DNA from: Paenibacillus apiarius
GTDB taxonomy: Bacteria > Bacillota > Bacilli > Paenibacillales > Paenibacillaceae
Assembly: GCF_017052585.1 (NCBI RefSeq)
Contig: NZ_JAFFHZ010000001.1
Coordinates: forward strand, 992,001-1,056,000
Direction of reading: 5' to 3'
Length of the DNA stretch: 64,000 nucleotides
This document shows positions 31,487 through 32,434 of this stretch, one piece after another (the first letter of the stretch is position 1; every line of letters starts with the position of its first letter). The position numbers and the translations under genes were made by a program. Under the pieces are notes generated by a model. That model was given only the letters and a program-made list of their open reading frames with translations. It was not told the DNA's origin and ran no database searches.

Positions 31487-32434
31487 TCAGCCCTTCTCCT
31501 CCTCTTGGATGCATACATGAGGATGCTTCGGGCAGTCATCTTCGTCGATGACGACAGGGCCGCAACCATTGTCGGGATCAATAGTTAATACGTCGCCTTG
31601 GCAGAAAGGTCTGTCGAACGTCAGCGTGAGCAAGAGCAAATTGTCTGGTTCACTCGTCGGAATGCAATTGCAACATCCGAAAAGTTCTTCAAAGTCGAGG
31701 TGCAGGCAGCATGTCGGACAATCTAACACAATCGTTTTTGCGCAAAATGTGGTCTGTACTTTTACTTTGACGATACAAGGAACTTCGCATTTGTTTCCCT
31801 TTTTATGATGTCCGTGATCACCGCACTTGCACTTATCGTGGCAGTCGCAGTCGTGCTTGTGCTTGCATTTATCATGACAATCGCAGTCGTGCTTGTGCTT
31901 GCATTTATCATGACAATCGCAGTCGTGCTTGTGCTTGCACTTATCGTGGCAGTCGCAGTCGTGCTTGTGCTTGCATTTATCATGACAATCGCAGTCGTGC
32001 TTGTGCTTGCATTTATCATGGCAATCACAGTCGTGCTTATGCTTGCATTTATCATGGCAATCGCAATCTTGCTTGTGCTTGCGCTTATCGTGGCAGTCGC
32101 AGTCGCGCTTGTGCTTGCGCTTATCGTGGCCGTCGCAGTCGCGCTTGTGCTTGCGCTTATCGTGGCAGCCGCAGTCGCGCTTGTGCTTGCACTTATCGTG
32201 GCAGTCGCAGTCGTGCTTATGTTTGCACTTATCGTGACAATTGCACTCATGATGGCGGTCGTTATGATGATGAATTATACATTTTTCCTTCAAATTATCG
32301 TTGGTCACGGTAATATCAAGGTCACATAACGGTTGTTTTGTCTCATTCCGCAATATGAACTTAATCGCGTTTTCACAGTGAGCCGTCACGTGCAGCGTGC
32401 GGAAGACAAGCTTTTTCTTTAATGGGATCGTCAT
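31487..32434 (-). CDS. Cys/His-rich 12-residue-repeat protein, possible metal-binding surface protein
   Basis: I know of no named family for this 315-residue protein. Residues about 62-205 are eleven full and one partial copy of a 12-residue unit with consensus DCDCHDKCKHKH, giving close to thirty cysteines and many histidines and lysines in the array. Some central copies have Arg for Cys. The N-terminal 60 residues look beta-rich (FRTLHVTAHCENAIKFILRN). The C-terminal about 105 residues add more cysteines (FCAKTIVLDCPTCCLHLD, LFGCCNCIP) and another beta segment. GAGGAGGT precedes the ATG, and a sigma-K-like promoter lies upstream. Metal binding or disulphide cross-linking in the spore surface is inferred. 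Confidence 0.75.
   Translation of the reverse strand: MTIPLKKKLVFRTLHVTAHCENAIKFILRNETKQPLCDLDITVTNDNLKEKCIIHHHNDRHHECNCHDKCKHKHDCDCHDKCKHKRDCGCHDKRKHKRDCDGHDKRKHKRDCDCHDKRKHKQDCDCHDKCKHKHDCDCHDKCKHKHDCDCHDKCKHKHDCDCHDKCKHKHDCDCHDKCKHKHDCDCHDKCKHKHDCDCHDKCKCGDHGHHKKGNKCEVPCIVKVKVQTTFCAKTIVLDCPTCCLHLDFEELFGCCNCIPTSEPDNLLLLTLTFDRPFCQGDVLTIDPDNGCGPVVIDEDDCPKHPHVCIQEEEKG
31826..32248. repeat. Tandem 36-bp coding repeats (11 full copies plus 27 bp)
   Basis: Eleven contiguous 36-base units and one partial unit encode the 12-residue Cys/His repeat. Units differ mainly at third codon positions and at a few Cys/Arg and His/Arg/Gln sites. Several central units are nearly identical, which suggests recent expansion or unit exchange. 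There are no spacers, so this is not a CRISPR array. Confidence 0.95.

Follow-up and report, generated by a model that had tools for sequence, protein, structure and literature searches.

A Cys/His repeat gene of Paenibacillus apiarius

We analysed a 64,000-nucleotide stretch of the Paenibacillus apiarius genome (contig NZ_JAFFHZ010000001.1, positions 992,001 to 1,056,000; hereafter the window) that carries, at 31487..32434 on the minus strand, a gene for a 315-amino-acid protein containing 49 Cys, 43 His, 50 Lys and 48 Asp, which we call the Cys/His protein. The gene starts with ATG, with GGAGG immediately 5' of it, and no signal-like hydrophobic N-terminus was seen when the translation was inspected by eye. 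Residues 63–206 (31817..32248, minus strand) form an array, predicted to be disordered, in which unit-by-unit reading distinguishes eleven full units of DCDCHDKCKHKH (residues 63–194) and a partial twelfth, DCDCHDKCKCGD (residues 195–206). Tandem Repeats Finder reported a period of 36 base pairs with 11.4 copies and 90% matches at 31826–32236, and self-matches at a period of 12 were found at 142 of 303 positions of the protein, as against a mean of 31.1 in 2000 shuffles (standard deviation 5.0, maximum 48). Together with the open reading frame itself, these analyses confirm the count of eleven full units and one partial unit given in a first-pass annotation of this DNA.

The array holds three Cys and three His per 12 residues, and every unit carries CXC and CXCH motifs with His nearby. 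The exact sequence DCDCHDKCKHKH recurs in six of the eleven full units (units 6–11); unit 1 reads ECNCHDKCKHKH, and Cys and/or His have been lost in units 2–5 (Cys to Arg or Gly, His to Arg or Gln). Of 43 departures from the consensus counted over the 12 units, 29 fall at third codon positions, as do 17 of 26 and 16 of 23 differences from the P. profundus gene in the two flanks. Thus, the minus-strand frame is under selection and its protein sequence is held. For the same reason we rejected as an artefact an antisense open reading frame of 174 amino acids (31805–32329, plus strand) that mirrors the repeat as a hydrophobic sequence.

The array had also been expected to vary in length between strains, which is partly borne out. 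The P. profundus protein has the 12-residue unit in common with the Cys/His protein and carries three full units and one partial unit; P0001, a second database protein, is of the same 315 amino acids with four substitutions, three of them inside the array. In P0001, as among the units themselves, Cys is lost without any change of length. Over the three longest stretches that match, window DNA is 87–89% identical to that of P. profundus, and the window lineage is therefore probably a near but separate species.

A predicted folded core with an insert in one loop

The repeat had been described as flanked by two beta-rich ends with further cysteines. Strand prediction agrees that the ends are beta-rich, and their additional Cys are present; comparison with relatives, however, points to an anatomy in which the repeat is not merely flanked. 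Four short relatives of 126–141 amino acids (from P. alvei, P. sp. NAIST15-1, P. selenitireducens and P. terrigena) align end to end with both ends of the Cys/His protein and have nothing at the array site. The alignments and structure models indicate that the two ends make up one beta-sandwich of ~129 residues, with the Cys/His stretch inserted in one of its loops. By its core columns in the alignments, the N-terminal half of this domain comprises residues 1–46 (32297..32434, minus strand; strands predicted at residues 3–45) and the C-terminal half residues 215–297 (31544..31792, minus strand; predicted strands from residue 221), the insert-bearing loop lying between the strands predicted at residues 38–45 and 221–227. 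An acidic tail (residues 298–315; 31490..31543, minus strand) adds two further Cys; only one of the four short forms has this tail. The short-form model reached a predicted local distance difference test score (pLDDT) of 85.2 and a predicted template modelling score of 0.80; in the model of the Cys/His protein the core folds in the same way and residues 50–215 fall below pLDDT 50.

Viral jelly-roll proteins were among the top structural matches listed for the beta-sandwich model. This raises the question of an ENA-like spore appendage, in which the jelly-roll domain would polymerise and the loop would decorate or bundle the fibres; F-type ENA fibres have been reported from Paenibacillus (PMC11952670). 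The Cys/His protein lacks the CC connector of ENA subunits and matched none of the solved or curated ENA family sequences. ENA subunits resemble it in being beta-sandwich proteins with Cys and in their spore context (below), its own fold being a predicted one. No ENA protein was among the matches listed in the fold searches, a result that does not exclude the ENA jelly-roll fold. We consider a fibre subunit improbable.

Nine long forms, the Cys/His protein included, carry inserts at the one site. These range from 61 to 281 residues, consist of Cys and His to 22–49%, and are mostly unlike in sequence. Hydrophobic residues are scarce in them (3 of 168 in the Cys/His protein, 16 of 105 at most), and the 168-residue insert of the Cys/His protein has 46 Lys and Arg and 37 Asp and Glu, its 38 His not being counted as charged. 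The cores differ as well, with 6–13 Cys in the long forms, whereas every one of the four short forms has 2. The 12-residue unit is missing from the long forms of ACRRX, P. taiwanensis, P. aquistagni, E10 and two further sources, which have irregular Cys/His/Lys stretches in its place. It is also missing from a second gene of P. selenitireducens (L032, 712–1965, plus strand), whose longer, His-rich array is built around HHHHSGHHKPDCGC and contains 90 His and 28 Cys in 281 residues; this species thus carries both forms, the short one within the gene block described below and the long one elsewhere.

In a tree of the core, which is unrooted and for which the program warned of long branches, a single branch with support of 99/98 separates long from short forms, so that a single gain, or a single loss, of the insert is sufficient to explain the split. 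A separate origin of the array in the window lineage, near the short forms, is not supported by this tree. The content of the insert appears from the sequences to have been replaced after that gain or loss, at a time that the core tree does not date. Separately, P0007 from Paenibacillus sp. MER TA 81-3, of 81 amino acids, is 94% identical to the C-terminal core and lacks both the array and the N-terminal half; it is either a disrupted gene or a truncated gene model.

The first-pass annotation found that no named family fits, and our searches agree. Pfam gave no family at E<=1 for the Cys/His protein, neither a metallothionein nor a described spore-coat family; PHROGs gave no match; and NCBIfam gave only four, of 8.6–15.8 bits against cut-offs of 770–1150. 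Word searches, as distinct from sequence searches, of the open-access part of the literature turned up nothing that we recognised as treating this family. A whole-protein search matched only P0001, and a first scan of genome contigs gave 10 stretches that matched the pattern, none of which was confirmed as a relative; these early searches missed relatives because the low-complexity words of the array mislead them. Family profiles then found further relatives in other Paenibacillus. Raw tallies were 12 of 98 genomes in one search and 10 of 19 in the genus-level group. Once chance matches were discarded, the family was counted in 8 of 19 genus genomes, the window's own among them, and in 9 of 394 family-level genomes with either of two profiles. 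The discarded matches were, in both searches, those in G006 and G010, with 4–9 TGA stops inside their frames, and, in the first search, the one in G068, which ran off-frame over a repetitive Pro/Ser/Thr-rich serine-protease-like gene. An order-level sample held the family in 5 of 392 genomes, all of the same genus, and in the window's own genome every match fell in this gene, leaving no paralogue there. By this sampling the family is narrow. The suggestion of a new family is supported in that no described family was found; the repeat, however, is not what defines the family, most long relatives being without the 12-residue unit.

A conserved gene block with a spore coat morphogen

Gene order around the Cys/His gene is kept in six other Paenibacillus loci (L016–L020 and L022), from P. 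profundus, ACRRX, P. taiwanensis, P. aquistagni, E10 and P. selenitireducens; in the last, the equivalent position is taken by the insert-free form, and no match to the methyltransferase genes was found. In the window, Pfam identified three methyltransferase genes (28208–28816 and 28855–29574, plus strand; 30596–31327, minus strand) and a GT2 glycosyltransferase (29753–30562, minus strand) adjoining the Cys/His gene. Its divergent partner (32608..33246, plus strand) encodes 212 amino acids of a family without a name. Further along lies a morphogenetic spore coat protein of the BMQ_0737 family (37313..37975, plus strand; NF052457, E 9.4e-43, 146.7 bits against a cut-off of 71), with counterparts of 75–97% identity in each of the six other loci. 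BMQ_0737, CotX1 and CotX2 are reported to lie outermost in B. megaterium spores, and a 2014 paper cited in the same source describes BMQ_0737 in its title as crucial to the outermost layers (PMC4656864).

The block also holds an 818-amino-acid GT2-GT4 protein with DUF4214, a JAB-domain protein, a DUF1360 protein, a bacilliredoxin and several unnamed proteins, and it is rich in glycosyltransferases and methyltransferases. A glycosyltransferase with DUF3880 within it (38064..39044, plus strand) is one that we take to be CgeB-like. Among the 19 genus genomes, NF052457 occurs in 14, in some of them within open frames of more than 1100 amino acids, and the Cys/His gene is found in 8 of these 14 versus none of the 5 without NF052457 (one-sided Fisher test, 0.04); because the genomes are related, this value is an upper bound on the weight of the association.

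We examined the region for the published sigma-K consensus, [a/c]AC[a/c]-N16-CATA-N3-TA (PMC5749712). The divergent partner is preceded by a perfect match, ACC-N16-CATACAGTA (32524..32551, plus strand), and the Cys/His gene by a sigma-K-like motif, AC-N17-CATATTTA (32467..32493, minus strand), which reads CATATTTAT and departs from the published -10 in its last two letters; the L017 and L018 genes match CATANNNTA fully. An AC-N-CATA motif at 37246 lies upstream of the BMQ_0737-family gene. A looser motif, AC-N15-18-CATANNN[AT], sought within 130 bases upstream of genes, was found at three likely structural genes, namely all seven BMQ_0737 homologues, six of seven divergent partners and five of seven Cys/His genes, for which shuffles led us to expect 0.32, 0.65 and 0.56 genes, respectively. 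Upstream of seven other genes of the region it was never found (0/7, 0/7, 0/6, 0/6, 0/7, 0/2 and 0/2). Full CATANNNTA precedes six of seven partners, three of seven Cys/His genes and two of six genes for the 818-amino-acid glycosyltransferase.

This neighbourhood bears on a further alternative, that the Cys/His protein is a vegetative cytoplasmic metal or redox protein standing in the block by chance. The lack of a visible signal peptide would fit such a protein, as would the nearby BrxC/YtxJ bacilliredoxin and SelD; coat proteins made in the mother cell, however, are not expected to have a signal peptide either. Against a chance position stand the collinear block with its spore coat morphogen in seven loci, the window included, and the sigma-K-like motif pattern, and we regard a vegetative role as very improbable. 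A spore location for the Cys/His protein, which the first-pass annotation had guessed, is supported, indirectly, by the collinear block, the NF052457 protein and the motif pattern.

Other features of the region were noted in passing. The divergent partner and the next gene (33297–33971, plus strand) encode two related unnamed proteins with 32% identity. Relatives of the partner were found in 26 of 344 family-level genomes; in some genomes they form the C-terminal portion of longer open frames, and in L076 the front part resembles a beta-helix repeat by eye. A 515-amino-acid unnamed block protein (34474–36021, minus strand) has an acidic 6/12-residue repeat (34895–35013) and is poorly conserved between species. 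Two large, fast-diverging block proteins (26169–27626, plus strand; 35919–37346, minus strand), with only sub-threshold Kelch or BNR matches, are possibly beta-propellers. The genes for the bacilliredoxin and SelD adjoin the block at 39659–41131, and an IS1595-like transposase with a zinc ribbon and a DDE match below cut-off is encoded at 41822–42805 (minus strand). Finally, an open reading frame of 135 amino acids with an uncertain start (49552–49959, minus strand) carries at its end a Gly/Tyr repeat (GYGGYGGYGGYGGYGGYYGYPYGYYR) that may be a coat-like tail.

A proposed structural role in the outer spore layers

Taken together, these data suggest that the Cys/His protein is probably a structural component of the outer spore layers. 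The mother cell would make it late in sporulation for the outer coat or exosporium, where the ~129-residue beta-sandwich would dock in, or tile, the layer. Tandem duplication would have lengthened one core loop into a hydrophilic, disordered tether, whose dense thiols and imidazoles may tie neighbouring chains together by disulphides, by shared metal ions bound by thiol or imidazole groups, or by both. Loop length and exact sequence would drift freely, and Cys, His and charge would be kept.

Several observations weigh against this proposal. Structure-model fold searches yielded no clear relative, and P. alvei and NAIST15-1 carry their short forms outside the block. Six of the 14 genus genomes with NF052457 lack the Cys/His gene, so that its product would be an accessory part. 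Full CATANNNTA is absent from all seven BMQ_0737 homologues and from the window's own Cys/His gene, and the loose partner motifs in L019 and L020 sit at another position. The seven loci are related, hence not independent, and the strict pattern also occurs five times in the whole window on both strands; the motif pattern is therefore support and not proof. Lastly, the array tolerates Cys losses in units 3–5 and in P0001, for which a statistical cross-linker suits better than a defined metal cluster.

The same losses bear on the idea that the loop is a metallothionein-like sink on the spore, serving mainly to store or sequester Zn, Cu, Ni or Cd, with cross-linking secondary. In favour of a sink, each unit combines CXC and CXCH motifs with His close by, and the excess of His over Cys in the long P. 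selenitireducens copy is one that disulphides alone would not explain; its 90 His suit some role for metal. However, the loss of unit Cys without change in length speaks against a sink, no metal transporter, regulator or metallothionein was detected among the 30 window proteins (Pfam, E 1 or 0.1), and the long forms have gained core Cys too, which fits cross-linking of a layer. Metallothioneins share the CXC-type motifs with the Cys/His protein, which has no match to a curated metallothionein family in Pfam. We thus regard a metal sink as unlikely.

The proposed cross-linked spore-layer protein has counterparts in design. CotG of B. subtilis is reported to have a central repeat that spaces out its ends, which bind other coat proteins; in other species, CotG-like proteins show the same architecture built with unrelated repeats. 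These proteins likewise combine interaction-competent ends with a hydrophilic tandem-repeat centre that is species-variable and separately arisen (PMC9765600). The Cys/His protein has central tandem repeats between distinct ends, which, unlike those of CotG, form one predicted folded domain. CotG repeats are 6–7 residues long and mainly positive, whereas the units here are 12 residues of Cys, His, Asp and Lys, and the insert, with the charges given above, does not have the strong positive charge of most CotG-like repeats. Homology of the Cys/His protein to CotG was not found. The neighbour of cotG is cotH, and a Pfam scan of 30 window proteins gave no CotH match, so the shared chromosomal organisation of cotG is not seen here.

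Cys-rich exosporium proteins such as CsxA, ExsY and CotY offer a second comparison. They are reported to lie in clusters with glycosyltransferases and to be cross-linked by disulphides after assembly (PMC7333573); high Cys content (49 of 315 residues here), glycosyltransferases nearby and a spore-forming host are common to them and the Cys/His protein. The latter differs in having no family match and a His-rich repeat loop. The BMQ_0737-family member of the block may act in the same layer, as a neighbour and not a homologue, NF052457 not being matched by the Cys/His protein. By the tests run, the Cys/His protein does not appear to belong to the CotG, CsxA/ExsY, ENA or metallothionein families; by analogy, it may work like CotG or CsxA/ExsY, no homology to a described family having been found. 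We conclude that the Cys/His family is a real, well-defined new protein family, whose proposed structural role is of a known kind and whose design, a loop in a folded domain with composition conserved and sequence replaced, appears unusual.

More tentatively, the loop could be a gel segment of fast turnover and conserved composition, whose metal- or redox-dependent cross-linking tunes the layer. If so, the mesh or metal load of the outer layer would change with loop length, and evolution would preserve chemistry (thiols, imidazoles, charge and a scarcity of hydrophobic residues) rather than sequence. The builders of Paenibacillus outer spore layers are little known. The domain described here occurs in nature without any insert, with irregular Cys/His inserts, and with clean arrays of the 12-residue unit in 3 or 11 full copies. 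Comparing these natural forms would therefore allow one to measure how a disordered Cys/His segment affects the mesh, disulphide content and metal content of the spore. The family also offers a clear case in which the composition of a disordered segment has apparently been kept while its sequence was replaced.
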